DNA of 64,000 nucleotides from the NCBI GenBank assembly GCA_030625815.1, contig DAOUQF010000002.1:1-64000 (forward strand), written 5' to 3'. Numbering within the stretch: position 1 is the first letter of the stretch; every line of letters starts with the position of its first letter. The stretch comes from Eubacteriales bacterium (GTDB taxonomy: Bacteria > Bacillota > Clostridia > Tissierellales > GPF-1). The position numbers were made by a program, and so were the translations under genes. The notes under the pieces were generated by a model, which ran no database searches, was not told where the DNA came from, and was given only the letters and a program-made list of their open reading frames with translations. Positions 20,802 to 50,887 of the stretch are shown in pieces.

Positions 20802-22400
<1,599 letters not shown>

Positions 22401-22678: not shown

Positions 22679-25489
22679 ATGAAGAAATTATTAGCACTTC
22701 TTCTTGTGGTTGCGATGGTATGTGGCGCATTCATTCCAGCATTTGCTGCGACTGATGCAGAGCTAGCTGCCGAAGCAAAACTACAAGAACTTGGAATTCT
22801 GAACGACAATCGAGCTGATGATAGCTTGACTCGTGCAGAAATGGTTGTTTTACTTGCTCGTATGTTGGGTGAGGAAGCAGCAGCAAAAGACTTCCCTGTG
22901 GCACCATCTTTCGCAGACGCGACTGATCACTGGGCGGCAAACTACATCGCATGGGCTGAGTCTATGGCGTATGTAAACGGCATGGAAAATGCTGATGGAA
23001 CATTCTCGTTCCAACCTGACGCGGTTGTAACTCTACAACAATATCAGGCAGTTATTCTTCGTGCATTGGGTTACGAAGTAGCATGGGCTGACGTTCCTGC
23101 AAAAGCTGAAGAGTTGGGTCTTGTTGTTACAGCAGCCAACACAGAAGAGCTTAAGCGTGGCGAGACTTCAATCCTTACAGTTGCCGCTTTGGAAACTGAA
23201 ATGGCTGACGGATCTCAAACTTTGGCAGCGAAACTTGGCATGATTGCAGAATTGGCAATCGCATCTGCTGAGCAAACTAACACTGACGAATTTGTTGTAA
23301 CATTCAACCAAGCAGTAACTGAAGGAACTTTCTCAGTAGTGCGCGGTAAAGTGGCTACAGCTGTTGAAGAAGTTGAGTTTGACGGCGCGACTGCAACATT
23401 GACAATGGAAAGAGATATCCGCGACGGATTCGATTACACAATCGGATTTGGCGAATTGGAAGCTGTAGTTGCTGGACAAGATTCAGTAGTTACTTCAATC
23501 TCATTCCCTTACGACTATGCAAACATGGTTGCTTTCGATACACCGGAAGAGCTTGTTGTTTACTACAATGTTGAAGATCAATTCGGCAACGATGTGACTG
23601 AAGATAATTCTGTGACTTTCTATTCGATTGGTTTGTCCGGCGAAGGTCATACGGATGGTGAAGTTCACATTACAACAGAGAACGTATGGTTGCTAGGTAC
23701 TCCGATCGTTGTTAACGGCGTATACAATGATGGCGCAGGCGTTGTTGTAACAGCTGTTAAAACTTTCGAAATCGCTGGTCCTATCAAGTTGGCTGAATTG
23801 GCATTGGGCGCACCTATGAACTTAGGTGAAGAAACTGCTGACATCATGAAAGGTCAAGATTTCGAGGACGACGACGAAGCTGATTTCTACTGGGTTCTTC
23901 CTTTGACAGCATTGAATCAATACGGCGATCAAGTGCCAGCAGGTTACTTTGCTGAGGACTATTTCACTGATGTTGGTGTAGTAGCTGCTGATGTTGTTGA
24001 ATATGAAGATGCATTGTATGTTGTTCTTGCTGAAGATCTAGACGAAGAAGAAGACGAAAACACAACTGCTTTCGTTACTGTTATCGACTTGAACTCAGGC
24101 TTGAATGATTCTGTAACATTCGTAATTCCTAAATCTGGCGTTTCTGAATTCAAAGCAATCGGTCCTGTTGATGAAGTAATCGGTGGAGAGACTGCTGTTG
24201 TTGAATTCGAAGCATATGACTACTACGGAAACTTAGTAACTGACGCAGACGACATGGATGATGTAAATGTTGGAACTATGATAATTGCAGATGATGAAGA
24301 TTGGTCATTCGAAACAGATCCATTCACTGACGAAGTGACTTTGGAGTATAAAGCGGATGATAACTTCACTTCATACGCGAAGCCGGTATTCTTCACATTC
24401 ACTGTTGAAAACACTGCTTCTGTATCTCAATTGAACTTCAGCGTTTCTGAAAACCGACGTCCAATTGATATCCAAGGATTCGACGATACTGATCTTCTTT
24501 ATGCTGAAACAGCAGAAGGCGTGATCACTGTTGAAGATCTTATTTTCATCGACCAATACGGTGAAGACATGGATTATGATGATGTAATGGCATGCGAAGA
24601 CGACGACTACACTGTAGTAATCGATGACGAAGGTGCATCTTTCGCGGTTGTAACTACAACTGATGGCTCTGCTGATTACACTGCATACTTGCTTGATTCA
24701 GATGAAGACATCGAAGACGCAGTGGCTGAATTCGAATTCACTGTAGAAATTATCGACGTTGACGATATCGATGAGTACGTATTGAGTGAAATTCCAGCAA
24801 TGTATGCTGATGAAGACTTAACTACTACAGCAACTGTTGCAACTAAGTACACTGTTGAGCTTGAAGTAACTGGTGATTACAACGGTAAATCAGTTGTTCT
24901 TCCAACTCCTGAGCTTGATGTAGAAACTTATCCTTCTACAAACTTAGGTGAAACTGTAGATGGTTCTGCAATTCTTGCAGCGTTCGGTATTGAAGATGAT
25001 GAAGATGAAGATACTACAGCAGTAGTATTGGTATCTTACACAGTTACCGGAACTGGCGATGACGAAGCACGCGGCATCTTCGAGCGAACTGTTGAACTTT
25101 CTGGTGTTGCTCCTGCAGCTGAGACTCTTGAAGTTGTATTGAACGAAGAGGCAGAAGACGCTTCAATCTCTGGCAACGCTGTTGAGATTTTATCTACTAA
25201 GCTAGATACTATCGATGGCGATGTAATTGTTGCTGACGATGATCAAGACGAGCCAGATTTCTTCTACTTCGAAGCAACTGATCAATACGGCGTTGTAACT
25301 AATGAAGTTTACTCTTACTTCTACCTAGTAGAAACTGATGTAGAGACTTACAACACTTACAATGTACATGCTGACGGTACTTTGACTATTGATGGAACTA
25401 TGGTTGATGGCGACACTTTCAAAGTAACTGCTGTAACTGAATCTGGTTTGACTCAAACAATCGAAGTTAAGGTTGTTGTTGAAGACTAG
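22679..25489 (+). CDS. Major S-layer-type protein with N-terminal SLH domains
   Basis: 936 residues: signal peptide (about 1-24, FIPAFAAT), an SLH region to about residue 190, then a strongly acidic, strand-rich ectodomain. Five recurring modules each carry a DQYG-like signature (EDQFGND, NQYGDQV, YDYYGNL, IDQYGED, TDQYGVV). Codon use differs from the neighbours, with many ACT, GTT, GTA and CTT codons, as in very highly expressed genes. It has the strongest promoter region of the locus and a TTAGGAGGAG site. Most likely the main subunit of the surface layer; the other three paralogues would be minor or alternative subunits. Confidence 0.85.
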   Translation: MKKLLALLLVVAMVCGAFIPAFAATDAELAAEAKLQELGILNDNRADDSLTRAEMVVLLARMLGEEAAAKDFPVAPSFADATDHWAANYIAWAESMAYVNGMENADGTFSFQPDAVVTLQQYQAVILRALGYEVAWADVPAKAEELGLVVTAANTEELKRGETSILTVAALETEMADGSQTLAAKLGMIAELAIASAEQTNTDEFVVTFNQAVTEGTFSVVRGKVATAVEEVEFDGATATLTMERDIRDGFDYTIGFGELEAVVAGQDSVVTSISFPYDYANMVAFDTPEELVVYYNVEDQFGNDVTEDNSVTFYSIGLSGEGHTDGEVHITTENVWLLGTPIVVNGVYNDGAGVVVTAVKTFEIAGPIKLAELALGAPMNLGEETADIMKGQDFEDDDEADFYWVLPLTALNQYGDQVPAGYFAEDYFTDVGVVAADVVEYEDALYVVLAEDLDEEEDENTTAFVTVIDLNSGLNDSVTFVIPKSGVSEFKAIGPVDEVIGGETAVVEFEAYDYYGNLVTDADDMDDVNVGTMIIADDEDWSFETDPFTDEVTLEYKADDNFTSYAKPVFFTFTVENTASVSQLNFSVSENRRPIDIQGFDDTDLLYAETAEGVITVEDLIFIDQYGEDMDYDDVMACEDDDYTVVIDDEGASFAVVTTTDGSADYTAYLLDSDEDIEDAVAEFEFTVEIIDVDDIDEYVLSEIPAMYADEDLTTTATVATKYTVELEVTGDYNGKSVVLPTPELDVETYPSTNLGETVDGSAILAAFGIEDDEDEDTTAVVLVSYTVTGTGDDEARGIFERTVELSGVAPAAETLEVVLNEEAEDASISGNAVEILSTKLDTIDGDVIVADDDQDEPDFFYFEATDQYGVVTNEVYSYFYLVETDVETYNTYNVHADGTLTIDGTMVDGDTFKVTAVTESGLTQTIEVKVVVED

Positions 25490-25709: not shown

Positions 25710-28571
25710 ATGAAGAAGAAATTAGCCATCTTACTGACAGTATTGATGGTTTTGACAGCAGTTGCTCCGTCTTTTGCGGCAACAATCATTATTGACCAAC
25801 CACCGGTTGGCCAGGATGCGGCACTGGACGAATTGATTATGTTAGGCGTATTGAAGGAACGACGAGGGGACGATTATTTGAAGCGTCAAGACACCGTGGT
25901 TCTTCTCAGCCGTTTGATGGGTCAAGAGGAACAGGCGAAAGCGTATCCAATCAATCATCCATTTAATGATGTAACGGATTCATTCTATAATGGATATTTG
26001 GGTTGGGCTTATGCGAACCAATATTTTATGGGCAAGAGCGGTACTGAATTTGGATTCGGTGAATTCATGACGGTACAGCAATTGCAGATCGTATTGCTTC
26101 GTTCGTTGGGTTATTATCTTGGTGAATTCCCAGGATGGGATGTGGTTGCATCAACTGCAGGCACATTGGGATTCGGCACGAATACCACGGGAACCGCAGT
26201 GGCGAGTCGTGGAAACATGGCTACGTTTACAGCGGCAACGATCCGTGCGAACTACAAGGGAACCAATGAATCATTGGCGGCGCGTTTGGGTCATGAAGTG
26301 AAGACCAAAGCGGACAATGCGCAATTGAATATTTTATCGTTTGTTCAAGTTGGACCAAAGACATTTGAACTTGAGTGTGATGAGAATATTGAAGCGTTAG
26401 AAAACGGCATTCAAATCAAGCGTGGCAATATCACGAACAGCATTAAGGAGATCACCTTCCCAACTTACGGGAAAGAGATGGCTCGCATTGAAATGACAAG
26501 CAATATCATGGATGTGAGTTACACTGCCATGATTACAGATACAAAAGGTCAAACCTTGAGTGCAATGGTTGCAGGTGCACGACCATACTTGGCGGATGTT
26601 TTAATCACGTCTTCCACGGCAAAGATTCTTGGATACACTGGTTCTGACATGAACAAGGTGATTATTAATTATGAAGCGGTTGATCAATTCGACAACGAAA
26701 TCAATGCTTCCATTACTTGGTCTGGTTCAGGCAATGTGTCAGACAAGGGCGGCTATCTGGAAATTTATAACTCTACATCTTGGCAATTGGGTCAAGTGGT
26801 GATGATTACAGGGATTGCTCAGGTAACTGGCAAAGCGCCGGTTGTTGTGAATCGCACATTAAAGGTCAGCGAACCGCGCAAGGCTGTAAGCCTTCAATTG
26901 GGCGATATCGAGAACCTGGATGAAGATCCAGACGACGAATATATTGTTCAGGGAAGCAATGATATTTGGGGCATCCCGGTTACAGCGATTGATCAAGAAG
27001 GCGATGAAATTTCCGATATCGCTTACTTTGGATCGAAAAATTCTGCAACCAGCAATAACGTGATCCTTTCTCCATCTGACGGTACGCTCGTTTGGTACTA
27101 TCCATCATCGTCACAAGTGGCGGACGGAAAAGAAGATCAAGTATATATCCGTATATATGCAAGCTCATTTGCAGAAAATACGGTACCGACTACAGTTTAT
27201 GTGAACTTGGTTGACAAGAATTCGGGAGCGAACGATTCTACAGCGATTGAATTGTTGCCAAATGGCGTGAATCGAATTGTTGTTGACGAACCGGATATGA
27301 TTGTAGCGGGCACGCCGGTTGAATTCCCATTCGAAGCATACAACTACGTTGGGGATCAAGTGCAAAAGTATGATTCTTTGAGAGATTCCATTTATGTGAA
27401 TGGCATTAAATTGACCAAGGGCGAGAAGAGCGGATTCTACTGGAAGGAAGCTGCCGGTGGGGATGCGATGTTGATGTACAAAAACACCAACACGTCTTCA
27501 ACTACACAATTCATGGAGTATGCGACTTTTATGGCTAATAACACCAGTCCATTCCAAGTAAACTTTATGGTTTATCCGAAGGCGAACCCATATGCGATTG
27601 CCGGCTTGGACGATGAGATTTACGAATATTACGCAGTTGATTCAAAAACAATCAATATCACTGATTCGGAATTGATATATGAAGACCAGTATGGTTACGA
27701 TTATGAAGGATCCATGCCGTCTGGCTACTATATTCAATTCACAGGCGATGGTGATATTTCGGGTGACGAGGAAACCGTCTCTTTGGATTTGGACGATGCC
27801 GCAACTTACGATTTTGAAGTTGAATTGTATGACAATGATGATAAATTATTGGATATCGCGTCCTTTACGATTCGTGTGTTGGATGCTGATGATATCGACA
27901 GATTTGAAGTAACAAACATCGGCAAGATTTACGCGCCGGACTCTGCAAACAGCAGTGCCTATGGCAAAGAGGTAGAAGTTCTCGGATATGAGGGCAACGA
28001 TCCGGTCAAATTACCAAATGGGGTCATTGAAAACATTCAAGCCATTACGCATTCGGAATATCTGAAAACAGATGTGCCGAGCAAGACTGTTTATGCAACA
28101 AGCAACGGCGGTGATTTGGAATCTGATATCAATGCGCAACTGATTGTGGAATATAAAATCGACGGTCAGGTAAATGTTGAGCAACAAACCGTAACGGTCA
28201 GCCCGAAAGAACCATATGCAGTCGATGTAGATATCTACGGCAAGGAAGACGCGAACCTTTCCGGTTCTTCACTATACGTGGATGCTTCCGATGTATTTGA
28301 TGGACTTGACTTGGTCTTGACTGACGAATATGACAGTGACAACAGCTACAGCGGATACTTTGATGCATTCTTTGAGATCACGGATCAGTATGGTGTTGTT
28401 TCCAAAGAAGTTGTCAATTATATGTATGTTAAGGACAATACGGATTACGCCATTGACAACTCCAATTACACATTGGATGTGAAGAAATCATCGGCAGAAT
28501 CTGGTGATGAATTTACCATTGTTTGTGTAACAGCAGATGGTACGACTCAATTGTATGTAACCGTTCAATAA
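25710..28571 (+). CDS. S-layer-type SLH protein, second paralogue
   Basis: 953 residues: signal peptide (APSFAAT), SLH region to about 195 (LDELIMLGVLKERRGDDYLKRQ, YNGYLGWAYANQYFMGKSG, VQQLQIVLLRSLGYYLG), then five DQYG-type modules (VDQFDNE, IDQEGDE, YNYVGDQ, EDQYGYD, TDQYGVV). It aligns with the major protein along its length but lacks the extreme codon bias. Own promoter and two successive terminators. Likely an alternative or minor S-layer subunit. No enzymatic motif seen. Confidence 0.83.
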   Translation: MKKKLAILLTVLMVLTAVAPSFAATIIIDQPPVGQDAALDELIMLGVLKERRGDDYLKRQDTVVLLSRLMGQEEQAKAYPINHPFNDVTDSFYNGYLGWAYANQYFMGKSGTEFGFGEFMTVQQLQIVLLRSLGYYLGEFPGWDVVASTAGTLGFGTNTTGTAVASRGNMATFTAATIRANYKGTNESLAARLGHEVKTKADNAQLNILSFVQVGPKTFELECDENIEALENGIQIKRGNITNSIKEITFPTYGKEMARIEMTSNIMDVSYTAMITDTKGQTLSAMVAGARPYLADVLITSSTAKILGYTGSDMNKVIINYEAVDQFDNEINASITWSGSGNVSDKGGYLEIYNSTSWQLGQVVMITGIAQVTGKAPVVVNRTLKVSEPRKAVSLQLGDIENLDEDPDDEYIVQGSNDIWGIPVTAIDQEGDEISDIAYFGSKNSATSNNVILSPSDGTLVWYYPSSSQVADGKEDQVYIRIYASSFAENTVPTTVYVNLVDKNSGANDSTAIELLPNGVNRIVVDEPDMIVAGTPVEFPFEAYNYVGDQVQKYDSLRDSIYVNGIKLTKGEKSGFYWKEAAGGDAMLMYKNTNTSSTTQFMEYATFMANNTSPFQVNFMVYPKANPYAIAGLDDEIYEYYAVDSKTINITDSELIYEDQYGYDYEGSMPSGYYIQFTGDGDISGDEETVSLDLDDAATYDFEVELYDNDDKLLDIASFTIRVLDADDIDRFEVTNIGKIYAPDSANSSAYGKEVEVLGYEGNDPVKLPNGVIENIQAITHSEYLKTDVPSKTVYATSNGGDLESDINAQLIVEYKIDGQVNVEQQTVTVSPKEPYAVDVDIYGKEDANLSGSSLYVDASDVFDGLDLVLTDEYDSDNSYSGYFDAFFEITDQYGVVSKEVVNYMYVKDNTDYAIDNSNYTLDVKKSSAESGDEFTIVCVTADGTTQLYVTVQ

Positions 28572-28616: not shown

Positions 28617-28668
28617 GTAGAATGCGCAAGCGGGAAATTGGTTTGTCAATTTCACATAGTTCTGTCTA

Positions 28669-28779: not shown

Positions 28780-28809
28780 AAATTTATAGGAATGTCTAGG
28801 AGGATCGAT

Positions 28810-31557
28810 ATGAAGCGGATTTTAAGTTACGTATTAATTACATTGCTTCTTTTTAATTTAAGCCCTGCCTTTGCGGGAGGCGATACGGATGCATTGGTAT
28901 CTGCTGGAGTTTTCTCCGGGAACCAGCCTGGTTCCCAACTCGTCCTGAAGCAAGATATGGCGGTCTATGTGACGCGATTATTGGGGAAAGAATTGGAAGC
29001 CAAGCGCGTTCAAGTCTTGCCTGCTTTTAATGATGTGCAGGATCCATCGTATCGGCCGTATATCGCATGGATGGTCATGAATGAGTACATATCCGGCGAG
29101 ACTGATTTTATGTACGGTTACAATCAGATCACCACGGTGCAGGAGTTATGTGCGGTTTGGTTGCGCGTTTTGGATTATTGGCCAACTTGGGATGGCGTTA
29201 TGATGATGGCGCGAGATATTGGATTGCTGGACGGGGTTGTCGCTTCCGCGTCGACGCAGGTCTCAGTGGACCTGTTCAGTGAACTCAGCTGCAATGCACT
29301 GTCAACACCGAAAAAGAATCATGATGTAAGCATCGGTTCGACCTGCAATTCTTCGGTATCGACGCAAAGCTTTACCTATGCGACAGCCAATTCGGCACGT
29401 CAAATCGGTGAGAAGAAAGTTCGAGTAGCTTTTACAAAGCCAACCTATACGGGATTTACCATTGAAGAGACAGAGAGGTTTTCGAAAAAGATTAAACTCA
29501 TCACGTGGGACGAGAGCCATAGTGTCGCGACAATCGAGGTAACAACGGCGTTTGAAGATCAGGCGTATACGCTTCGAGCCGGAGACACATCATTAACCTT
29601 TACAGCGGAAGAAGCGCATGTGTCGGATATCTACTTGAATTCCACCACCTTCGCGAAGGTCAATGAGTTTATGGCGGAAACCTATTTTACGGTGTTGAAT
29701 CAGTTTGGCGAGGTTGTACGCTTTCCAAATATGTATTGGGGAGTTTCCATTAACGCCAATGCGGGAACAACAATGAATAAGATTTTTCTAACGACTACGG
29801 AGCCGTTTACAGAAGAATCATTCATTCTCTACGGCGCCGATGCCGATTCGGGCGTGGAGATTCAGAAGCTGGTTCGCGTTCGCGATGCGGGCACTTCTGT
29901 GAACTATATGAAGTTTGGCGATTTGACCAATGCGTCAATCTCCGCAATGGATTACAAGATCAACTTCGGTGATGTAGGGGACAATTATGAATGGCGTGTT
30001 CCGGTTTATGTCTATGACGAGTTTGGTCATGTGATTCCTAAGAAAGATTTCTATAAGTACAAGGTGAAATTTTCCGTTACAACGGGAGAAGACTTGATTC
30101 AGTACGACCTATTGGAAGGCGATCCGAGTCCATACGTGCGAATCAAACCGACCGATACGGATGCGGAGACATCGGATATTCGATTGCAATTGACAGCGGG
30201 ATCCTTCACAAAGAGTTATCTTTTCACCATAACAGGCAAGGCGCATTTGGATCGATTTGAATTTTCCGCGCCAGGTGAAATTTTGGTTGAAAATGAAGAG
30301 ATCGAAATTCCTTATACAGCTTACGATGTTCGCGGCAATCGAATCGATCAATATGATGATTTGATCAATGCTGAGATTGTATTTGTCAATGAAGATGCCT
30401 TTATGTGGCGACGCGAACCGGTAACGGGTAGAGCGCAATTGTTCTATACGCCAAGCACGACGAAGTATGAAATGGCAAGATTCAATGGCCAGCTTGTCAG
30501 CACGCGCATGTTGGTCGATCCTGAACCGGAACCGGAAGGGGTTGCCGGGATCGACAAAGAGGTGCTGTTAGCCATGATTACGGGCGAAACCATTTCGATC
30601 GAAGATGGCGATTTCATCTACATTGATGAATATGGTCGCGATATTTCATCCACTTCCAAATATCTGAACGGATATCCAACGAGAGTGGAGTTGGACGGCG
30701 CGGATCAAGGAAATGTAAACCTGTCTGTCGGTGCTGATGAATACTTCTTTACTGGCGAAGACGAAGGGGAAGAAAATTTCCGTGCGTATCTCTATGAAAT
30801 CAGCGAAGGCGATGAGCTGCCTGGCAGCGATTATGAATTCACTGTGGCGTCTTACGATTTGAGCAGCATTGAAGATTTTACCGTTATCTTGGATGGCTTG
30901 CTTTACGGCGGCAACGCTTCTCACATCGACATGGACGATTATAAGCGCACCCCGGAAGTAGAAGGAAGGATTGGTGGATATACCCTTGAGATTCCAGGTT
31001 CAGCAGTGATTGTACAGACGCCAAGTCCGCATATCACCAAGGTTGGATCGACGATTCAAGGAATTGTATCCGATGAGGATACCGTCACCTATGAGAATGA
31101 GATGGTGTTGGTGACCGTGAATAATGGGGATGACTTATATAATTTTGAATTGCCAATCAAGGTGTCTAATGAGGATCCGAAGGCAATTCGAATCGACACG
31201 GCGGAGAACCCAGAGAATGGACTTGCCTCTGATGAAAGCTCATTCGAGCCGAGCAAGAATTTGGTGATTGTTGAGAAAGGATCGGATGATTATGATGCCT
31301 TCTTCAGCATGAATCTGTTGGAGACGCCAATTCGATTCGAAGTAATCGATCAATACAATACCACCAATGGGATTGAGCCGCTGTATTACACCTTAACGGT
31401 GCAAAAGGCGGAGGGTTCGACAGCGACATATGCGATCAATAACACAAATGGAACCTTGAGCCATTCCGGTTCACCGGCGGATGGGGATCTTTTGACCATC
31501 AAGGCGATGGGGCTGAATGATGTGGAAGGAACCATGGTGATTGCGATTACAGATTAA
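28810..31557 (+). CDS. S-layer-type SLH protein, third paralogue
   Basis: 915 residues from ATG 28810, which has a TAGGAGG site; an upstream in-frame start at 28792 lacks one. Signal peptide (SPAFAGG), a divergent SLH region to about 180 (SYRPYIAWMVMNEYISGETD, VQELCAVWLRVLDY), then the same five-module order with looser signatures (LNQFGEV, YDEFGHV, YDVRGNR, IDEYGRD, IDQYNTT). A proline-glutamate linker (DPEPEPEG) splits modules three and four. Probably a surface-layer component attached through the SLH region; the divergent SLH motifs may bind the wall more weakly. Confidence 0.8.
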   Translation: MKRILSYVLITLLLFNLSPAFAGGDTDALVSAGVFSGNQPGSQLVLKQDMAVYVTRLLGKELEAKRVQVLPAFNDVQDPSYRPYIAWMVMNEYISGETDFMYGYNQITTVQELCAVWLRVLDYWPTWDGVMMMARDIGLLDGVVASASTQVSVDLFSELSCNALSTPKKNHDVSIGSTCNSSVSTQSFTYATANSARQIGEKKVRVAFTKPTYTGFTIEETERFSKKIKLITWDESHSVATIEVTTAFEDQAYTLRAGDTSLTFTAEEAHVSDIYLNSTTFAKVNEFMAETYFTVLNQFGEVVRFPNMYWGVSINANAGTTMNKIFLTTTEPFTEESFILYGADADSGVEIQKLVRVRDAGTSVNYMKFGDLTNASISAMDYKINFGDVGDNYEWRVPVYVYDEFGHVIPKKDFYKYKVKFSVTTGEDLIQYDLLEGDPSPYVRIKPTDTDAETSDIRLQLTAGSFTKSYLFTITGKAHLDRFEFSAPGEILVENEEIEIPYTAYDVRGNRIDQYDDLINAEIVFVNEDAFMWRREPVTGRAQLFYTPSTTKYEMARFNGQLVSTRMLVDPEPEPEGVAGIDKEVLLAMITGETISIEDGDFIYIDEYGRDISSTSKYLNGYPTRVELDGADQGNVNLSVGADEYFFTGEDEGEENFRAYLYEISEGDELPGSDYEFTVASYDLSSIEDFTVILDGLLYGGNASHIDMDDYKRTPEVEGRIGGYTLEIPGSAVIVQTPSPHITKVGSTIQGIVSDEDTVTYENEMVLVTVNNGDDLYNFELPIKVSNEDPKAIRIDTAENPENGLASDESSFEPSKNLVIVEKGSDDYDAFFSMNLLETPIRFEVIDQYNTTNGIEPLYYTLTVQKAEGSTATYAINNTNGTLSHSGSPADGDLLTIKAMGLNDVEGTMVIAITD

Positions 31558-31572
31558 TGGAAACGAAATGAA

Positions 31573-31602
31573 GGTTAGCTGATTTTTTCAGCTAGCCTCT
31601 TT
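31573..31602 (+). terminator. Terminator of the third SLH gene
   Basis: Stem GGTTAGCTGA / TCAGCTAGCC followed by TCTTTTT. Confidence 0.85.
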
Positions 31603-31767: not shown

Positions 31768-34653
31768 ATGAAACGGATCATCAGTTTGCTTGTAATACTT
31801 GTGTTGATAGGTACCTCATCTGGCTTTGCGATGGAGTTGGAGGGAGGCAGTGAAATAGAGCGGCAGGCGGCGGAGCAGATGGTGAAATTGAGCATCTTTC
31901 GCGGTGATGGAGTCAGCCTGAAGTTAGACGAAAGTCTAAAGCGGGAAGAGTTGATGCTTTTGATCGCTCGGCTGCAGGGAAAAGAGCTGCAGGCATTAAC
32001 TTATAATAAGCGTCCCGGTTTTGCGGACATTGCGGATCCATGGTGGGAACCCGTCATTGCATGGGCAACTGATACGGGGATTACGAAGGGAACTTCGGAA
32101 GAGACCTTTGGTTTTGGCGAACCCGTGGAGATGTTCCAGATGGAACTCTTCTTACTCCGGGTATTGGGGGAAGACGCGAGCGTAGAGGAAGCACCGCAAC
32201 TGGCGATGGAACGAGGGCTGTTGAAGGACGTAGATTCAACAGAACTTGTTAGCCAAGGCGTAGGCGCAGTTATGATGAAAAACGCCTTAGAGGCGATACC
32301 AGCAGGCGAGAATGCGACCCTTGGCGAGCTGCTTGGATTGGATCTGGCGGTGAGCGAGGATGCGGACCTTTCGATTCTTTCCGTGATGCAAACCGGAGAG
32401 CGGGAGTTGACCATTGAGTTGAATCGTTCAGGATTGGAAGAGACCTTGACCATGACCAGGCGGAATATGGATGTTGTCCTTGAAAGCGTGGATATGGCTG
32501 GAAATGAAATCATTGTGACAACTACTTTACCATTGTTTGAAACGAAATATCTCATTCGGATTGCAGAGGCAACTGCCTCTTTTACGCCGGGCGATGTGGC
32601 CAAACCGGAGCGCTTGGAAATATTAACCGGGTCGTGGACGCAAGTGGCCTATCAAACGGATCAGGTTTGGGTGGAATACCGATTATTGGATCAGTATGGA
32701 AAAGAAATAACAGAAGAATCGGTCTTGTCGCAGATTTCCTGGCAAGCATCTCCCTTGGCTTCAGTTGAAGACAATGAAGACGGTCGCTTGGTGATTACCA
32801 ATATGAGCGATCGAGAATGGGTGGCGGGGGAATCATTCCTCATCCTTCGGGGGATCCTGCAATTGGAAGAGAACATCTTGGTTGCAACCAAGCAGGGTGT
32901 CATTGAACCTGTACAAGGAATTGATACAATTGCAATCGGCGAGATTGAAAACCTCTTAGGAGAGGAAACCGCCTTTTTGCAAGACACAATAGAGGATGAC
33001 GAGCATTATTACGCATTGCCGGTACGGGTTGGCGCGCAGGCGCAGCCTGTTCTTGCCGCCTATGTAGCGGGAGAGGATGGAATTTTGAATACACAGGATG
33101 ACGGGCTGCTGCTCTCTGCTTCAACCAATGGAGATGCAGAGGTGGAATGGACTGTGCATCCGGATGACGAAGATATAGCGGTGATCCATGTCGTTCCTCA
33201 CGGATACCCCGAAGAGGAGACCCTTTACGTAACGGTGGTGGATCGATTTACGGGCGGCTATGGGTACACAGAAATACAGATTGGCAAAGTCAGCACCTTG
33301 GAGACCTTTGTTTTCTTTGCACCGGACGAAATGGTTACAGAGGGCGACAGTATCGAATTGCCGTTTGAAGCCTATGATCAATATGGCATGCGGATGCTGG
33401 ATTATGCGACCCTGATTTCGGAGGTTGTGTTGGAGCCGGGAATGCCGGTTCTGCGATTTGAAGAGGATGAAACAACCCAAGCGGTTCAACTGATTTATCG
33501 GCCAACGGAGGCGGGGGTTAAAACCCTTCGGGCGACGGCCAATGGAAAGACGCAGAGTTTGGAGATCCGAGTCTATGAAGAGAGTCGGCCGGTGCGAATC
33601 GGCGGGCTTGCAAACGGAGTTCGCACATGGATGACGGAGAACGCGGAAATCACCTTGGATCGAAATGATTTTCTGATCTATGATCAGTACAATCAATTGG
33701 TAGACTTGAGTAATGGGTTTATGATTCAGGTTGCAGAAGTTGATGGTGACGAGGATGCGGTAGCCGCTTCGACGGATGCCATATCCGGAACGGGAACCAT
33801 AACCTTTATAAAAGACACCGGCTTTGGGGCCAAGATTTACGAGGCTCGGATTGGTGGAGAGGGATACAAGTCATTCTCCTTTGCCATGCATAGCGTGGAT
33901 GCCGCCGGCTTGGATGGATTTGGCATGGAGACCATCGGAATTCTCTACGATTATTCGAGAAAGATTCCATTGACGGATGCGTATCCGCGAGTTGCCCAAG
34001 ATTATCGGGAAGAGATTAAAGTCTATGGACTATATGAAGACAAAGAAGTGGAATTGTGGGCAGATGCGCAGGACAGCAACAGCGATCTTCGAGAGTTTTC
34101 GGTTCTAGGGCCGATTCAACTGGTAATCGCAGGAGAAAAAGCCTTTGTCCGAGCGACACAGCTTGGAGAAGAGGATATTCCGGATTCGGCAACGGTATAT
34201 GCGACATTCAATTACGGGGCATATACGGAAGAGGCGGAAGAGGATTTGATGGTGTCTGACGCCAATAGCGAGCCTTTAACAATTTCCATTGAGAAAAATG
34301 AGGATGTTGCGCTTAAGCGGGGGGAACGCTTTGATTCAGCTGCCGGCGAGTTGGTGATCAACTTGAATCACTTTGCTGAATGGGACGGGCAGCGGGTCTA
34401 TCGAAACGGGAACGACCGGATTGATGCGGCATACTTCCAGGTCAGTGATCAATACGGGGTCTTGAGTCAATTCGACCCTGCCCGATATACGATTCTCTAT
34501 GATGATGTGGAGGATCGAGCGGGGATCGCCATCGGATCAGCAACAGGCGCATTGTCCATCGATGAGGCACGGATTCATCGAGGCGATCGCTTTCGAATCC
34601 GTGCCACTGCGGATAATGATCAAAGCGCAGATCTGACCATAGTATTGCGATAG
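31768..34653 (+). CDS. S-layer-type SLH protein, fourth paralogue, first gene of the TolC-like operon
   Basis: 961 residues: signal peptide (SSGFAM), SLH region to about 190 (MVKLSIFRGDGVSLKLDESLKREELMLLIARL, PWWEPVIAWATDTGITKG, FGFGEPVEMFQMELFLLRVL), then DQYG-type modules (LDQYGKE, YDQYGMR, YDQYNQL, SDQYGVL). Unlike the other three it is not monocistronic: the next gene starts seven to ten bases after its stop and three genes follow without a terminator. This suggests it works with the SLH-less partner and the TolC-like proteins, perhaps as their wall anchor. Confidence 0.8.
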   Translation: MKRIISLLVILVLIGTSSGFAMELEGGSEIERQAAEQMVKLSIFRGDGVSLKLDESLKREELMLLIARLQGKELQALTYNKRPGFADIADPWWEPVIAWATDTGITKGTSEETFGFGEPVEMFQMELFLLRVLGEDASVEEAPQLAMERGLLKDVDSTELVSQGVGAVMMKNALEAIPAGENATLGELLGLDLAVSEDADLSILSVMQTGERELTIELNRSGLEETLTMTRRNMDVVLESVDMAGNEIIVTTTLPLFETKYLIRIAEATASFTPGDVAKPERLEILTGSWTQVAYQTDQVWVEYRLLDQYGKEITEESVLSQISWQASPLASVEDNEDGRLVITNMSDREWVAGESFLILRGILQLEENILVATKQGVIEPVQGIDTIAIGEIENLLGEETAFLQDTIEDDEHYYALPVRVGAQAQPVLAAYVAGEDGILNTQDDGLLLSASTNGDAEVEWTVHPDDEDIAVIHVVPHGYPEEETLYVTVVDRFTGGYGYTEIQIGKVSTLETFVFFAPDEMVTEGDSIELPFEAYDQYGMRMLDYATLISEVVLEPGMPVLRFEEDETTQAVQLIYRPTEAGVKTLRATANGKTQSLEIRVYEESRPVRIGGLANGVRTWMTENAEITLDRNDFLIYDQYNQLVDLSNGFMIQVAEVDGDEDAVAASTDAISGTGTITFIKDTGFGAKIYEARIGGEGYKSFSFAMHSVDAAGLDGFGMETIGILYDYSRKIPLTDAYPRVAQDYREEIKVYGLYEDKEVELWADAQDSNSDLREFSVLGPIQLVIAGEKAFVRATQLGEEDIPDSATVYATFNYGAYTEEAEEDLMVSDANSEPLTISIEKNEDVALKRGERFDSAAGELVINLNHFAEWDGQRVYRNGNDRIDAAYFQVSDQYGVLSQFDPARYTILYDDVEDRAGIAIGSATGALSIDEARIHRGDRFRIRATADNDQSADLTIVLR

Positions 34654-34663
34654 GAGGAGTATG

Positions 34664-36001
34664 ATGAAGAAGAGAATAATAACTTTCGCGCTCCTTTTAT
34701 GCCTGGTGCAGACGGCCGGATTTGCGGGAGTGCAGCAAATGGAATTTATCATGAATGACGATGTGGTTGAAATCAACGAGCCGGTTGTATTGGATTTGCA
34801 GGTTTTTGATGAAACGGGTCAGGTAATCAACGACTATCAGACCTTGAAGGAAATTGTGGTGGGCGCGTTGGATGGGAGCTTTGTTTATTGGTCAAGGGAC
34901 GAAGAAACCCTTTTGCCAAAATTAACATTCTTGCCGTCCAAAGCAGGAGATGTCTATCTCTACGCCATTACGCGAGATGGGGTAAAGGCGGAAGCAAAGG
35001 TGAGCGTTGAAATCCCGGGTGTGCCGACCTACGTGGAAGGGGTGAGGGGTTCCTTGCACTGGAAAACGGCAGAGGGCGCCGGGCTTCTTTTAACCCATGA
35101 GAATATGACGATTTTGGATCAGTATGGCCGCGGATACGAATTGGAGAATCCCTATTATGTGGAAGTCAAGGATTCCGATGGAGATGTGATCGGTCAGGTT
35201 GATGAGAATATGGATGTTTTTCTTTCCTCGCCCAAGGCTGGGAAGACCGAGAGTTATTCTTTGGTGATTCACGATCCGGATGGAGTTTTGGAGGATGCAA
35301 CCACCGCCCTGTATGTCACGGGTGTTGAAACTGATGAGATAACAGCTTATCGATTGAATTTGGTGGGACGATTGTACGGCGGCAGCGGGAGCAGTGGATT
35401 AGGGGGCTTAACCGGTGTGGGGGCTGGGGTTGATACCCAAAGCCTGTTGCAGTCTTTCCTGGGAACGCAAGCGCCACAAACAGAAACCCTAGACGAAAAT
35501 AGCGACTACGCCAAGGATTTGGTGCTTAGTGGATATCTTTCCGACGGCGAAGAGGTCGCCTTGGATCGCTTTATCACCTATGCGACCACAAGCGATTCTG
35601 GAATGGTTGGCTTTTCCGAGAATTATGATAAGATATTTGGACAGAGCGCGGGAACAACAACCATTGGTTTGTGGCATCAACTGACTCGTGCAGTCTATCT
35701 GGATGTTACGGTCAGTTCGGAAGCTCCGTCTTTCGAGAAATTTGTGTTTGAGGAAGATTTCGATTATGTGGTGCGAGTGGGCACATCCATTGATCTTGCG
35801 GAAACCCTTACGATCATCGATCAGTACGGGGTGGAGATTACCGAAGAGGTTGCGGGACAATGGTTTGTCGACGAGACGGAACTGGCCACCATCAATCGAG
35901 ATACGGGCCGCGTGCGCGGGAAAAAGGCGGGCGCCCTGACAGTTGGATTTATTACGGAAGAGGGAAAATTGGCAACCCATACCCTTTTGGTTGTGGAATA
36001 G
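34664..36001 (+). CDS. SLH-less S-layer-like protein
   Basis: 445 residues: signal peptide (about 1-20, TAGFAG) followed directly by sequence matching only the C-terminal half of the SLH proteins, that is modules three to five (FDETGQVINDY, LDQYGRGYELE, IDQYGVEITEE). The SLH region and first two modules are absent. A Gly/Ser-rich stretch with GGSGSSGLGG lies in the middle. Start ATG 34664 has AGGAGG six bases upstream (ATG 34661 is too close). The final about 80 residues look like a bacterial Ig-like (Big_2-type) domain. Likely held at the surface by partner proteins rather than by its own wall anchor. Confidence 0.72.
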   Translation: MKKRIITFALLLCLVQTAGFAGVQQMEFIMNDDVVEINEPVVLDLQVFDETGQVINDYQTLKEIVVGALDGSFVYWSRDEETLLPKLTFLPSKAGDVYLYAITRDGVKAEAKVSVEIPGVPTYVEGVRGSLHWKTAEGAGLLLTHENMTILDQYGRGYELENPYYVEVKDSDGDVIGQVDENMDVFLSSPKAGKTESYSLVIHDPDGVLEDATTALYVTGVETDEITAYRLNLVGRLYGGSGSSGLGGLTGVGAGVDTQSLLQSFLGTQAPQTETLDENSDYAKDLVLSGYLSDGEEVALDRFITYATTSDSGMVGFSENYDKIFGQSAGTTTIGLWHQLTRAVYLDVTVSSEAPSFEKFVFEEDFDYVVRVGTSIDLAETLTIIDQYGVEITEEVAGQWFVDETELATINRDTGRVRGKKAGALTVGFITEEGKLATHTLLVVE

Positions 36002-36010
36002 GGGGCAGTT

Positions 36011-37162
36011 ATGGCAAGAGTAAAGTGGATAGCATGGCTTTTATGTGTCGGATTATTAACGGGATCTGTCGGCTTTGCCGACGGGGGCGTAACTCAATTC
36101 TCCGAGATCGAGAAAGCCATCAATGAGTATAATAGTCAGATCCTGCGGCAGATCGCCGATACGGAATTGTTGCGTTTGCAAAAGGAGAGCTTGGACGAAC
36201 AAAAAGAGTCAATGGAACCCTTGCGTCCTTTGTTTGGGTCCGTCTCCTCGCTCCTTGGGGGTGAAACGGCGTTGCAATTGATCTCTTTGACGGAGTATGT
36301 GCCTGCGCAGCTGGACATGGGGATCAAACTTTCGGAATTGGGAGTGGAGATCGCAAGAAATTCGGTGGTTTTGGGCGCGCGCCAATTGGTGATGGGGATT
36401 ATGCAAAGCCAACAGGCGATTCGCCGGGCATCGGAAAATGTTGAGAATCAACAGCGAAATTGGGATCGAATGCTGATTTCTTATGCGAATGGAATGGCAA
36501 CGGAGACTGATCGATTGAAGGCTAAGGCGGATCTGGAAGATGCGAAGCTTAAAGCAGAGCGATTTGAAATGGATCGATTGGATTATACGCGAAGGCTGAA
36601 TCAGTTAATGGGAAAACCCATTGAAACAGAGTTTCTTTTTCTGCGGGAAGAACCCATGGAAGCTCCGCTTTTGGAAGAGTCGACCTATTTGAAAGCAGCT
36701 TATAAGGAGCGATTTGAGATCGTACAATTGCAAGAAGTCCTTGCCTTGAAGGATCAGGAGATCGCGCTTTATGACACCTATGGATTGAGGGATGATTCGA
36801 GCTTGCGGAAGACTTATCGACGCTTGGAAGTGGAGCGGGAGCAATTGATTCTTCAATTGAATGAAGCGAAGGAAGAGATTGCCGTTGAAGTGAAGACCGC
36901 CTATCGCAAAGCTGTGATCATGAATCAACAGCGGATTGCAATCACGGCAAATCGGGATGCAAAGCGGATTTTATTGGCGAATTTGAAAATACAGAGACAG
37001 GAAGGGTTTGTCTCGGATGCGATTTTCGAGGAGACGGAGAATGGCCTGAAAGAGTTGGAAGAAGGGGTCGATCTCTTGATCCTGCAATATAACACGGCGA
37101 GGATGGCTTTGGATTTTGCTTCTCAGGTTGGGCCTGGAGCGGGAAGCGGGGTGACACCATGA
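36011..37162 (+). CDS. TolC-like coiled-coil protein 1
   Basis: 383 residues: signal peptide (about 1-24, GSVGFAD) and long amphipathic helices rich in Glu, Lys, Gln and Leu, in the two-halves arrangement of the TolC/outer membrane efflux protein family (QRNWDRMLISYANGMATETDRLKAKADLEDAK pattern, repeated at QRQEGFVSDAIFEETENGLKELE). It is shorter than Gram-negative TolC and no beta-barrel strands are evident, so it may form only the helical tunnel or a coiled-coil scaffold. Starts nine bases after the SLH-less gene and overlaps the next by four. The function in a cell with SLH wall proteins is unknown. Confidence 0.7.
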   Translation: MARVKWIAWLLCVGLLTGSVGFADGGVTQFSEIEKAINEYNSQILRQIADTELLRLQKESLDEQKESMEPLRPLFGSVSSLLGGETALQLISLTEYVPAQLDMGIKLSELGVEIARNSVVLGARQLVMGIMQSQQAIRRASENVENQQRNWDRMLISYANGMATETDRLKAKADLEDAKLKAERFEMDRLDYTRRLNQLMGKPIETEFLFLREEPMEAPLLEESTYLKAAYKERFEIVQLQEVLALKDQEIALYDTYGLRDDSSLRKTYRRLEVEREQLILQLNEAKEEIAVEVKTAYRKAVIMNQQRIAITANRDAKRILLANLKIQRQEGFVSDAIFEETENGLKELEEGVDLLILQYNTARMALDFASQVGPGAGSGVTP

Positions 37163-38220
37163 AGAAACAAGGAGTGATATTTGTTGTCGCTTTACTGATT
37201 TTAATTAGCGCGGGATTTGCGGTTGTCAATGGGTGGGATCTTGCATCTATTCAGCAGAAGAGCGTGGAAGAGGATCAGCGAGTCGCCATCGCGAAGCTGG
37301 AGGAAACCATTCAGGGATTGAAATTGGATGAGGCTGAGGAAGATGCGGCCTTTGCTTCCAGCGCGGGAAACCGGGAAGCGGAACTCGCCGGCTACGATAC
37401 AAAGGAATGGAAACCTTACGTTGCCGAAGCCCAAGTCGAAGCGGCGCGAAAAGAAACCAGGATTGCAAAATTAAACGCTGAAGCGGAAGGGCTCGAGAAA
37501 GCCGTGGCTCTCAGCGTAGCGAATGCAAAACTGCAGTGGAAACAGCAAATGGTAGAACTCGCAAAGCAGAAGCTCGAAATGGAAAAGGTTCGACTGGATG
37601 TGGGCATGAGCATTGAAGCGAATCTGCAGGACGCCATTGCGGTGCTGACTCAGGCAGAGGCGGATCGTGTTGCTGCTGAGCAAGAGGTGGAGATTGCGCG
37701 GATTGTACTGGCGCAGCAGATCAAGGTGGAGAACCCGGCCATTGCGCCAATGAAAGAGATTGAAGCGCGTTTTCCGACTCAGCCGGAACTGGAAACTTGG
37801 GTTGCAAGAGATCCCCAGGTGATTCGAACCAAAGCGGAATCGGAACGGGCAGAGGCTTTGAAGATGAAAGCGTCGGAAGGTTTTACCGTTGATGATCGAT
37901 TGTGGAAGGAAAAGCATCAAGAGGCGCTAAAAGCCTTGTTGAATTACGAAGAAGCCAAGCAGAATGCGGAGATTGCCATTCAGAAGGATTGGCAACGGGC
38001 AGCCCTTGCATTCAAGGGACTGGAAACCACCCTGCGATATGACAACGTGGCTGAAATGACGTTGAAAAATGCGGAGTTGAAATTTAATGAGGGCTTGATT
38101 TCAGAGAGTGGATACTTGGACAGCCAAGGAAAACGTGCGGAAGTGCAGGTGAATCTGAAGGTTGCCGAAGCGGAGTATTTGTCCGCCAATATGCGGTATC
38201 AAATTTGGAGAAGCGAGTAG
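37159..38220 (+). CDS. TolC-like coiled-coil protein 2
   Basis: 353 residues: signal peptide or anchor (about 1-25), then almost continuous coiled-coil helices with many Ala, Glu and Lys. The pattern KLEMEKVRLDVGMSIEANLQDAIAVLTQAE, repeated as LKNAELKFNEGLISESGYLDSQGKRAEVQ, is the duplicated helical hairpin of TolC-type proteins. No obvious barrel strands. Its ATG overlaps the previous stop (ATGA), so the two TolC-like proteins are made together and may pair. Last gene of the operon. Confidence 0.68.
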   Translation: MKKQGVIFVVALLILISAGFAVVNGWDLASIQQKSVEEDQRVAIAKLEETIQGLKLDEAEEDAAFASSAGNREAELAGYDTKEWKPYVAEAQVEAARKETRIAKLNAEAEGLEKAVALSVANAKLQWKQQMVELAKQKLEMEKVRLDVGMSIEANLQDAIAVLTQAEADRVAAEQEVEIARIVLAQQIKVENPAIAPMKEIEARFPTQPELETWVARDPQVIRTKAESERAEALKMKASEGFTVDDRLWKEKHQEALKALLNYEEAKQNAEIAIQKDWQRAALAFKGLETTLRYDNVAEMTLKNAELKFNEGLISESGYLDSQGKRAEVQVNLKVAEAEYLSANMRYQIWRSE

Positions 38221-38492
38221 AAAAATCTCACCACAGAGGCAACTTGTAAGAATTACTTACAAGTTCAAAATGAAAGCGGAAGAACAGTAAAACGAAATAA
38301 ATTACACTATAATCTTGAATAGAGAAATATTAAGCCATTCAAGATAAATATCTAAAAAAATGGCTGATGAATTAGCAAGTGAAGAATATGAAGAAGATGA
38401 TTTTGATCGGTTTATTAAAGAAAAGAGACTGAAAAAGCAAGTGAAGAAATGAAAAAAATGCAAACAAATAGCCCGCTTTCGCGGGCTTGGTT
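38221..38492. other. Intergenic region with an inverted repeat and a doubtful 30-codon ORF
   Basis: A perfect 10-bp inverted repeat AACTTGTAAG / CTTACAAGTT (38241-38250, 38256-38265) follows the TolC-like operon, but without a T-run. A 30-codon frame (38360-38452, plus strand, MADELASEEYEEDD...) has no convincing ribosome-binding site and is probably not a gene or is a remnant. The rest is A+T-rich and shows nothing else I can support. Confidence 0.4.
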
Positions 38493-47204: not shown

Positions 47205-47891
47205 ATGGATAAGAAGAGAAAGATTATGATCGTTGATGACGATCCCAATATTGTTGAGTTGATTGATATCTATTTGAAAAAAGAAGGCTATGAGACCGAT
47301 AAGCATCTATCCGGCGTAACCGCCTTGGATCGTTTTGATGCAGCGGAACCGGATTTGATCCTGTTGGATATTATGCTGCCGGAGATCGACGGCTATGACG
47401 TCTGTACAGAGATTCGAAAGAAAAGCGATGTGCCGATCATTATGATTACTGCAAAAGGCGAGACATTCGACAAGGTGCTGGGGCTGGAATTGGGCGCCGA
47501 TGATTATCTTGTAAAACCCTTTGAGGCGGCGGAGCTTCTTGCAAGGGTAAAAGCGGTTCTCAGGCGATACGGCAATGAGATGCCGCAGAAAAAGGTCTTG
47601 GAGATTCCCAATCTGAAGATTGATTTGAATGATTATTCACTGACTTATCATGACAAGAAGCTGGAGATGCCGAAGAAGGAATTGGAGCTTTTGCATTTCT
47701 TGATTGCAAATCCCAACCATGTTTTTACCCGGGAGCAATTGCTCGATAAGATTTGGGGATACGAGTATGTGGGAGAAAGCCGAACGGTAGACGTGCATAT
47801 CAAACGAGTCCGCGAGAAGTTGAGTCATGAGGATCCGTGGGAGATTAAAACAGTCTGGTCCGTGGGCTATAAGTTCCAGAATAAGGAGTAG
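47205..47891 (+). CDS. OmpR-family response regulator 1
   Basis: 228 residues: receiver domain with acidic pocket VDDDP, phosphorylated D55 (LLDIMLPEIDGYD), T and K (MITAKG, LVKPFEAAEL), and a C-terminal winged helix (HVFTREQLLDKIWGYEYVGESRTVDVHIKRVREKL). It is followed five bases later by its histidine kinase. The neighbouring exporter genes and phased repeats suggest control of envelope genes. It resembles PhoP/WalR regulators, but family members are too alike to name it from sequence alone. Confidence 0.93.
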   Translation: MDKKRKIMIVDDDPNIVELIDIYLKKEGYETDKHLSGVTALDRFDAAEPDLILLDIMLPEIDGYDVCTEIRKKSDVPIIMITAKGETFDKVLGLELGADDYLVKPFEAAELLARVKAVLRRYGNEMPQKKVLEIPNLKIDLNDYSLTYHDKKLEMPKKELELLHFLIANPNHVFTREQLLDKIWGYEYVGESRTVDVHIKRVREKLSHEDPWEIKTVWSVGYKFQNKE

Positions 47892-47896
47892 AGGCT

Positions 47897-49465
47897 ATGC
47901 GCACCCTCTTTGGAAAGATGGTGGCAACCCATGCGGTGGCGATTTTTGTCGGCATTCTGATTATGATTTTTGGGTTGAATGCAATCTTTCAATATTATTT
48001 CGTTGAAAAACAAGAGAATCAAATGCTGGAGCAGGCGGAGCAGATTGCCGGTGCCTACGCGTTTTTTGCGGAGTCGCAGCAAGCGGATTTCTCCGGCGTA
48101 TATTCGGAACAATTCCGGGAATATATGACGCAGATTATCGAAAACGCGGATATCGACAGTGAATTTGACATCGATCGATTGATTGGCGCGTCCAATATTG
48201 TCAATGTGCTGGAGGGAGATTTTCGGGAAGCCCTCTTCCAATTTGAATTGGCAAGCTTGAGCAACTATATGAATGCGTCGATCTTTATCGTCAACGAACA
48301 AGCGCAATTGATGTCTCAAAACGAAGTGAAGGTGAAAGAAACCATTCCTCGCGCTTCTGTTGAATCGGTCTTCGAGGGTAGTGTTGTGCAGGAAGCCGTC
48401 GGGATCCAAAAGATCTACGAGAATCCTGTCATTACCGTCGGTTATCCCATCTACTTGGATGGAGAGGTGGCCTATGCCTTGTTTTTGCAGGCGGATGTGC
48501 CAGTTGTGACGGAAACGGTTTCGGATATTCTTTCCATCACAATTATTTCGCTCTTGATTACGGGGATTATCGCCGTGATCGCGATTTTTCTGGTGATGAG
48601 CAATGTGACCAAAGAGATCTCGCGGGTGAATATGCGGATGCAAGAGATTGCCCAGGGAAACTTTGATCGTCGATTGAAGGTGACGAGAAACGATGAACTC
48701 GGTGAATTGATGGGGACCTTTAATCTAATGGTGGATGAATTGTCCCGGGTGGAAAAGAAAAGGGAAGAGTTTGTATCGAATCTTTCCCATGACTTCCGGT
48801 CGCCGTTGACTTCCATCAATGGATACATCCAGGCGATTTTGGATGGCACCATTCCGCCGGAAAATCAGGAACGATACTTGCGGATTGTGGCCGATGAAAG
48901 CAATCGCTTGACGAAGATGGCCAATGATATTTTGGATCTTTCCAGGATGCAGACGGGAGCGGCCAAACTGGAACTGGAAGAAATCAAGATTCACGATTTT
49001 TTGGTGAATGAACTGATCAAGTTCGAGCATCGAATTGATGAGAAGGAAGTGGATGTGCAAATTCACTTTATCAATAAGATTCCGATTATCGCGGCGGACC
49101 GTGCCCTCCTGCAACGGGTTGTGTATAATTTGTTGGATAATGCCATGAAGTTTATCAATCAGAAGGGTACTCTGGAGTTGAAAACCCAGGTGCAAAATCA
49201 AAAGATTGTAGTCACGATTCGAAACACGGGAGCCGTGATCCGAAAAGACGAGCAAGTGAAGATTTGGGAACGGTTCAGCAAGCTGGATACATCCAGAGGC
49301 GAGGTGAAAAAATCCTCTGGCTTGGGATTGTCCATTGTGAAGGAAATTATCCGCGCTCACGAAGAGGATATCTGGATTGAGTCGAGCCGGGAGTCTGGCG
49401 TGTCCTTTATCTTCACCCTTCCAATCAATGCTTGGGAAAGAAAACCGAAGCGAAATGAGAAATAA
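47897..49465 (+). CDS. Sensor histidine kinase 1
   Basis: 522 residues: membrane helix 1 (about 8-30), an extracytoplasmic sensor of about 180 residues, helix 2 (about 211-234), HAMP, dimerisation domain with H298 in NLSHDFRSPLTSINGY, and an ATPase domain with N box (NLLDNAMKF), and G boxes (SGLGLSIVKEII). No PAS domain, unlike typical WalK. The sensor domain has the size and strand pattern of PDC/Cache-like domains; the signal is unknown. Partner of the preceding response regulator. A terminator follows. Confidence 0.92.
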   Translation: MRTLFGKMVATHAVAIFVGILIMIFGLNAIFQYYFVEKQENQMLEQAEQIAGAYAFFAESQQADFSGVYSEQFREYMTQIIENADIDSEFDIDRLIGASNIVNVLEGDFREALFQFELASLSNYMNASIFIVNEQAQLMSQNEVKVKETIPRASVESVFEGSVVQEAVGIQKIYENPVITVGYPIYLDGEVAYALFLQADVPVVTETVSDILSITIISLLITGIIAVIAIFLVMSNVTKEISRVNMRMQEIAQGNFDRRLKVTRNDELGELMGTFNLMVDELSRVEKKREEFVSNLSHDFRSPLTSINGYIQAILDGTIPPENQERYLRIVADESNRLTKMANDILDLSRMQTGAAKLELEEIKIHDFLVNELIKFEHRIDEKEVDVQIHFINKIPIIAADRALLQRVVYNLLDNAMKFINQKGTLELKTQVQNQKIVVTIRNTGAVIRKDEQVKIWERFSKLDTSRGEVKKSSGLGLSIVKEIIRAHEEDIWIESSRESGVSFIFTLPINAWERKPKRNEK

Positions 49466-49479
49466 GAGAATCCAAAAGA

Positions 49480-49525
49480 ACCCCGGCTATTTGCGTGGAA
49501 TGCGCAAAACGGCCGGGGTTTTGTA
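49480..49525 (+). terminator. Terminator of the first two-component operon
   Basis: Outer stem AACCCCGGC / GCCGGGGTT with an inner stem TTTGCG / CGCAAA, followed by TTTTG. Confidence 0.8.
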
Positions 49526-49528
49526 CTG

Positions 49529-49587
49529 TTTATAAAGTTTTTATGAATTCGTGTGGGACTTGTTAGATCTATTGGATATCCTATAAT
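49529..49587 (+). promoter_or_regulatory. Promoter region of the MacA/MacB-like exporter
   Basis: Direct repeats TTTATAA (49529) and TTTATGA (49540), then TTGTTA (49560-49565), 16-base spacer, TATAAT (49582-49587). Confidence 0.6.
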
Positions 49588-49612
49588 TAAGTAAAGTGAA
49601 AGGATGGGTCTG

Positions 49613-50872: not shown

Positions 50873-50887
50873 CGGAAAGGAGAAATC

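Follow-up and report, generated by a model that had tools for sequence, protein, structure and literature searches.

An operon linking a surface-layer-type protein to two TolC-like proteins in a member of the Tissierellales: a candidate conduit of the cell surface

We analysed a stretch of 64,000 nucleotides (contig DAOUQF010000002.1 of assembly GCA_030625815.1, forward strand; hereafter the window) from a Eubacteriales bacterium of the order Tissierellales, in which an operon at 31768-38220 joins a surface-layer (S-layer) type gene to two genes for TolC-like proteins. A check of the open reading frames (ORFs) recovered four genes in the order and at the place proposed by a sequence-only reading of this DNA, namely SLH4, which carries an SLH region, a partner lacking it (PART), and the TolC-like TOL1 and TOL2 (Table 1). 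The spacing is 9 bases between PART and TOL1 and -4 between TOL1 and TOL2, as in that reading, whereas the first gap, given there as 10 bases, is 7 or 10 depending on which ATG starts PART. Judging by the ORF translations, all four proteins have signal-peptide-like N-termini. The same reading saw no terminator, and no strong terminator-like hairpin is present on the coding strand inside the operon, although there are weak candidates at 32133 (in SLH4) and 35716 (in PART). Terminator-like hairpins stand before and after the operon, and another lies at 28668, 3' of the upstream gene SLH2.

SLH4 is an acidic (pI 4.2), cysteine-free protein of S-layer type, homologous to SLH1 over its full length, with a degenerate N-terminal SLH region and Ig-like modules that bear the motif DQYG. 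PART has no SLH region and so, as had been claimed, no such anchor; it is similar to the latter half of the SLH proteins, its residues 14-243 aligning with 477-710 of SLH3 and its residues 28-174 with 516-661 of SLH4 (HHalign, 83-87%). These alignments roughly bear out the earlier description of PART as the last three of five DQYG modules, but SLH4 has four DQYG/DQYN motifs rather than five, and the support for the last module of PART consists of its DQYG motif and a weak C-terminal match to Big_2. The genome also encodes a pyruvyl transferase (PF04230), a family needed for the SLH ligand and SLH anchoring.

Both TOL1 (42.4 bits, E=8.8e-11) and TOL2 (38.6 bits, E=1.3e-9) match the OEP family (PF02321) above its Pfam cut-off of 22 bits, in agreement with the claim of two TolC-like proteins, and a profile led by TOL1 found TolC, CmeC and OprM among solved structures. 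This likeness to TolC is beyond chance. The structural model of TOL1 (predicted local distance difference test, pLDDT, 84.9; 16 sequences) consists of long helical hairpins, without barrel strands, and matches Escherichia coli TolC with a Z score of 20.4 over 326 residues, compared with about 9 for unrelated helical rows. Between residues 252 and 269 TOL1 has 16 residues, where TolC has 67 between the matching positions 235 and 303; about 51 residues are thus lost, and with them the second barrel hairpin. The hairpin-tip glycines of TOL1, G161 and G332, are invariant, and these tips are the adaptor-facing end in TolC. The TOL2 model (pLDDT 68.5) is also all helical with no barrel strands, and its best match is again TolC (Foldseek 2.4e-7, from a low-confidence model). 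The earlier wording, helical hairpins with no evident barrel, is upheld by the TOL1 model. As barrel strands are absent from both models, neither protein should bear the name outer-membrane channel. A profile comparison gave no alignment between TOL1 and TOL2, which leaves an origin by recent tandem duplication unsupported.

The operon is present in all three genomes of the genus, with PART broken in one of them (G002). Gene order, spacing and strand are identical in G001 and, apart from PART, in G002. Across these two genomes SLH4, TOL1 and TOL2 are 77-85% identical to the window proteins (79-85% for SLH4), PART is 84% identical in G001, and TOL1 and TOL2 are intact in all three species. A rough ratio of nonsynonymous to synonymous substitution rates (dN/dS) of ~0.1 was obtained for each of the four genes between the window genome (G000) and G001, and TOL1, TOL2 and SLH4 are under purifying selection. 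The four-gene set as such, which the sequence-only reading proposed to seek in other Clostridia, was not found beyond the genus, PART was confined to the genus among 100 relatives, and a universal four-gene system was accordingly rejected. Linkage itself, the lack of which in relatives would have told against that reading, persists in the genus and, as pairs of SLH and OEP genes, in relatives.

Across the order, OEP genes were found in 92 of 249 genomes (E<=0.001; some matches, in family f4, are weak), in two main settings: an adaptor-RND-TetR-OEP operon, and an SLH gene with an OEP gene immediately after it. Since many lie in ordinary operons of the former kind, not every TolC-like gene is SLH-linked. 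We sampled 30 OEP loci by OEP score alone, 29 of them with an upstream gene, and in 12 of these 29 top-scoring loci that gene was a same-strand SLH gene (families f5, f8, f9, f10, f12 and f19). At an SLH base rate of 1-2%, the probability of 12 in 30 by chance is <1e-12, a significance inflated by the relatedness of the genomes. A 13th case is the second TolC-like gene in an SLH-TOL-TOL set of G025, a genome of another family, in which SLH-TOL1-TOL2 adjoins pyrG and the two TOL genes have the same 4-base overlap as in the window. Gene order, overlap and 20-23% identity are the grounds for a putative orthology between this pair and TOL1/TOL2, the join of the TOL1 proteins in the tree being weak (85, long branches). 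SLH-OEP pairs usually have an S41 peptidase gene and pyrG on their left, as in the window (G009, G025, G038 and G049 of f8; G010 and G026 of f9; G011 and G039 of f10), while in G028 (f11) pyrG but no S41 gene was seen and, outside the order, G315 has an SLH-OEP pair two genes behind an S41 gene. When 58 OEP domains are placed on a tree, those linked to SLH cluster, with 8 changes compared with 18.3 in shuffles, but do not form one clade: the SLH-OEP association is recurrent. TOL1 alone found no match in named genomes, whereas an alignment of SLH-linked OEPs found matches in Thermohalobacter berrensis, Caloranaerobacter azorensis and metagenome-assembled genomes of Soehngenia and Gudongella, relatives that place the window in or near the Tissierellales. 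A genome of a different family (G515, L246:6888-9205) carries tandem TolC-like genes of 388 and 379 aa that have neither SLH nor pump genes as neighbours.

Some of these pairs stand beside pump genes. The order is pyrG-SLH-OEP-adaptor-RND in G028, S41-SLH-OEP-ABC-MacB-adaptor in G236 and G235, and SLH-OEP-adaptor-RND in G058, where a 194-aa gene, TetR-like by position, lies between OEP and adaptor. In nine genomes of a clostridial family of the same class (f20), SLH and OEP regions are fused in a single protein of 574-657 aa (Table 1). Four of the nine fusion genes (G733, G633, G680 and G673) lie directly behind an RND-type gene, two of them with an adaptor upstream, and in G733 and G633 the RND gene is AcrB-type by Pfam; other f20 genomes (G630, G702, G753 and G626) have a short SLH gene adjoining the OEP gene. 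Given the fusions, it is likely that wall anchor and outlet are coupled in general, and the window operon may make use of such a coupling. In their own right, the fusions are probably more striking than that operon.

No match to the outer-membrane marker Omp85 (PF01103) was seen in the three genus genomes (97-98% complete), even at E<=1, nor in 25 further genomes that carry TolC-like proteins, the majority of them SLH-linked. G288, the fusion genome that was searched, lacks it as well. As far as this marker tells, there is therefore no outer membrane in which the TolC-like proteins could sit. With SLH genes present and no Omp85 found, the genus has the host traits (S-layer genes, no BamA/Omp85) of the group of monoderm S-layer TolC-like proteins in PMC8809574.

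Elsewhere in the window (Table 1), the S41-pyrG pair marks the S-layer locus in several families of the order, and beside the S41 gene lies a gene for a small secreted protein that is kept in G002 (180 aa). Downstream of the operon, a set with HlyD/MacA-like adaptor, ABC ATPase and MacB permease might provide pump partners in trans for TOL1 and TOL2. It adjoins a third OEP gene, which stands directly behind a kinase/response-regulator pair.

Table 1. Features of the window (positions in the 64,000-nucleotide stretch) and fusion loci in relatives
Feature	Position	Strand	Remark
Small secreted protein	18608-19153	-	181 aa, mostly SLH motifs
S41 peptidase	19284-20726	+	conserved left border of SLH-OEP loci in the order
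pyrG (CTP synthase)	20805-22400	+	conserved left border of SLH-OEP loci in the order
SLH1	22679-25489	+	tandem SLH paralogue; same locus as operon, separate unit
SLH2	25710-28571	+	tandem SLH paralogue; same locus as operon, separate unit
SLH3	28792-31557	+	tandem SLH paralogue; same locus as operon, separate unit
Terminator-like hairpin	31572-31598	+	between SLH3 and operon
SLH4	31768-34653	+	961 aa
PART	34661-36001	+	ATG at 34661 or 34664, giving 446 or 445 aa
TOL1	36011-37162	+	383 aa
TOL2	37159-38220	+	353 aa; 4-base overlap (ATGA) with TOL1
Terminator-like hairpin	38470-38487	+	3' of operon, after TOL2; functional on either strand
Response regulator, kinase, HlyD/MacA-like adaptor, ABC ATPase, MacB permease	47205-52773	+	
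Kinase/response-regulator pair	52946-55026		
Third TolC-like (OEP) protein	55147-56445		432 aa
SLH+OEP fusions (family f20)	L237:3183-4958 (G288)		also G632, G759, G665, G646, G733, G633, G680, G673; loci also L267-L274

We propose, with slightly better than even confidence, that the operon provides the surface layer with a conduit module, in which a barrel-less TolC-type conduit is held at the wall and S-layer by SLH proteins and probably serves as an outlet for pumps encoded elsewhere. SLH4 would be exported by means of its signal peptide and anchored in the wall through its SLH region, while TOL1 and TOL2 would form tubes of the TolC type in which the membrane barrel has been lost but the helical tunnel and the hairpin tips that face the adaptor remain. 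Their barrel-less end may sit in or under the S-layer instead of an outer membrane, held by SLH4 with the help of PART, which would contribute anchorless Ig-like modules of S-layer type. The inner tips would probably dock HlyD/MacA-type adaptors of pumps encoded elsewhere, either those of the MacAB-like set in the window or those of adaptor genes on other contigs. The outcome would be an outlet across wall and S-layer, comparable to E. coli TolC, which serves pumps encoded at unlinked loci. We infer the location of the tubes, their anchoring by SLH4, their oligomeric state, docking and transport, and the role of PART from the gene order, the signal-peptide-like N-termini, the homology to TolC, the barrel-less TOL1 model, the absence of Omp85, the recurrent SLH-OEP linkage and the fusions in relatives, some of them after RND genes. 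The suggestion in the sequence-only reading of a wall-anchored conduit through the S-layer is strengthened by the nine fusions and the pairs beside adaptor and transporter genes, except that PART is dispensable to it.

A number of observations weigh against this proposal. By Pfam the SLH domain of SLH4 is weak, scoring 14.9 bits where the cut-off is 20.8; the region reaches ~1e-46 with a locally built SLH profile, and the counterparts in L083 and L107 score 20.4 and 37.9 bits. PART in G002 (L081:2573-3761) has a 167-base deletion and a frameshift relative to the window, which reflect either a pseudogene or an assembly error; as PART is specific to the genus and broken in one of its three species, it is not an essential part of the arrangement. 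Both TOL proteins have diverged strongly, with long tree branches, and the TOL2 model is of low confidence. There are no adaptor or transporter genes in the operon, the nearest set being that at 47205-52773. In genomes outside the genus, SLH and OEP genes are mostly 98-327 bases apart, so that the tight operon is special to the genus and co-transcription elsewhere is not assured, and the 8 changes between SLH-linked and pump-linked states indicate that SLH linkage was repeatedly gained or lost. Gene linkage by itself does not show contact.

The main rival is a scaffold without transport, in which the TolC-like proteins would be closed posts of helices, reaching through the wall and tying the S-layer to it, but allow no passage. 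An operon devoid of pump genes would suit it, as would the S-layer-type partners SLH4 and PART and the occurrence, in two families, of two TolC-like genes coupled through the same overlap, which structural subunits might require. We nevertheless regard it as unlikely, because the TolC hairpin-tip glycines are retained and related SLH-linked or SLH-fused OEPs adjoin adaptor, RND or MacB genes. In Caulobacter, the TolC-like protein RsaF helps type I secretion of the S-layer protein, and the RsaA locus resembles the present one in that an S-layer gene lies near a TolC-like gene. With S-layer genes directly preceding TolC-like genes across the order, the TolC-like proteins could carry SLH proteins across the wall, and such a role for S-layer proteins was suggested in PMC4137172. 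This appears quite improbable to us, as SLH1-SLH4 start with Sec-type signal sequences and Sec already places them outside the membrane. Type I secretion is recognised by an ABC exporter and adaptor in the locus and a substrate lacking a Sec signal; unlike the Caulobacter locus, the operon has no ABC exporter or adaptor, its SLH proteins carry Sec signals, and no outer membrane is expected.

It is at least as improbable that the neighbourhood is coincidental or regulatory, that is, that surface genes are grouped for shared expression without forming a shared complex. Several SLH genes do cluster here with different neighbours, and linkage comes and goes on the tree, but recurrence in eight families, the 4-base coupling and the nine SLH+OEP fusions speak against mere grouping. 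Finally, the TolC-like proteins could be relics of a lost outer membrane, left from a diderm ancestor and on their way out. Monoderm Firmicutes are thought to be diderm-derived (PMC5007114), the barrel is gone and Omp85 was not found; the signs of purifying selection on TOL1 and TOL2 (rough dN/dS ~0.1), their integrity in all three genus genomes, and the continuing use indicated by the SLH fusions make this explanation barely credible.

The conduit that we favour has partial precedents. A study of 2022 (PLoS Biology, PMC8809574) described TolC-like proteins in monoderm Firmicutes that bear an S-layer, proposed that these proteins are seated in it and noted the omission of the barrel in a Clostridioides difficile TolC-like protein, and OEP and HlyD proteins have been found in a Gram-positive surfaceome (PMC4137172). 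The proteins described here share with those of PMC8809574 the OEP family, the lack of BAM, the presence of an S-layer and the omission of the barrel; they differ in that the examples given there (text and figure legend) are pump operons, whereas the present operon combines an S-layer gene with two TolC-like genes and lacks a pump gene, and relatives have SLH fusions. Compared with E. coli TolC and the outer membrane factor family (PF02321), the two OEP repeats, long helical hairpins, tip glycines and TolC fold are shared, but identity is ~10%, the TOL1 model has no beta-barrel and no outer membrane is expected. SLH4 is like Gram-positive SLH S-layer proteins in its signal peptide, SLH region, acidity, Ig-like modules and the PF04230 enzyme in its genome, and unlike them in its degenerate SLH region and its operon with TolC-like genes and an SLH-less partial paralogue. 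The f20 fusions recall OmpM of the Negativicutes (PMC10628300), in which SLH is likewise joined to an envelope channel; OmpM, however, is a beta-barrel porin in a true outer membrane, whereas the present channel is built of helices, with no barrel in the TOL1 model, and Omp85 was not found. In the literature searched, which did not extend to subscription papers, we found no description of SLH-TolC linkage, of an SLH-TolC fusion, or of a pump-less operon with two TolC-like genes and an SLH-less partner. Within that literature, the earlier statement that no such system is described holds for the gene set, but not for S-layer-seated, barrel-omitted TolC-like proteins, which had been proposed in 2022.

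What TolC-like proteins and AcrB-type pumps do in cells without an outer membrane is an open question, which these genes address. The recurrent SLH-TolC pair and the natural fusions beside RND genes lend genetic support to the S-layer as the seat of such proteins, and provide concrete proteins with which the idea can be tested. More tentatively, and with some doubt, we speculate that monoderm Clostridia re-seated TolC-type outlets from a lost outer membrane to the wall and S-layer by pairing or fusing them with SLH proteins, and that the window operon represents a specialised variant, independent of pumps, whose two distinct TolC proteins without barrels form, together with an S-layer subunit that lacks an anchor, a dedicated S-layer pore common to several pumps. 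If the proposed conduit is real, S-layers would be more than porous armour and would carry dedicated outlets, and a protein anchor would be able to take the place of the TolC barrel, a point relevant to how a diderm envelope may have changed into a monoderm one.

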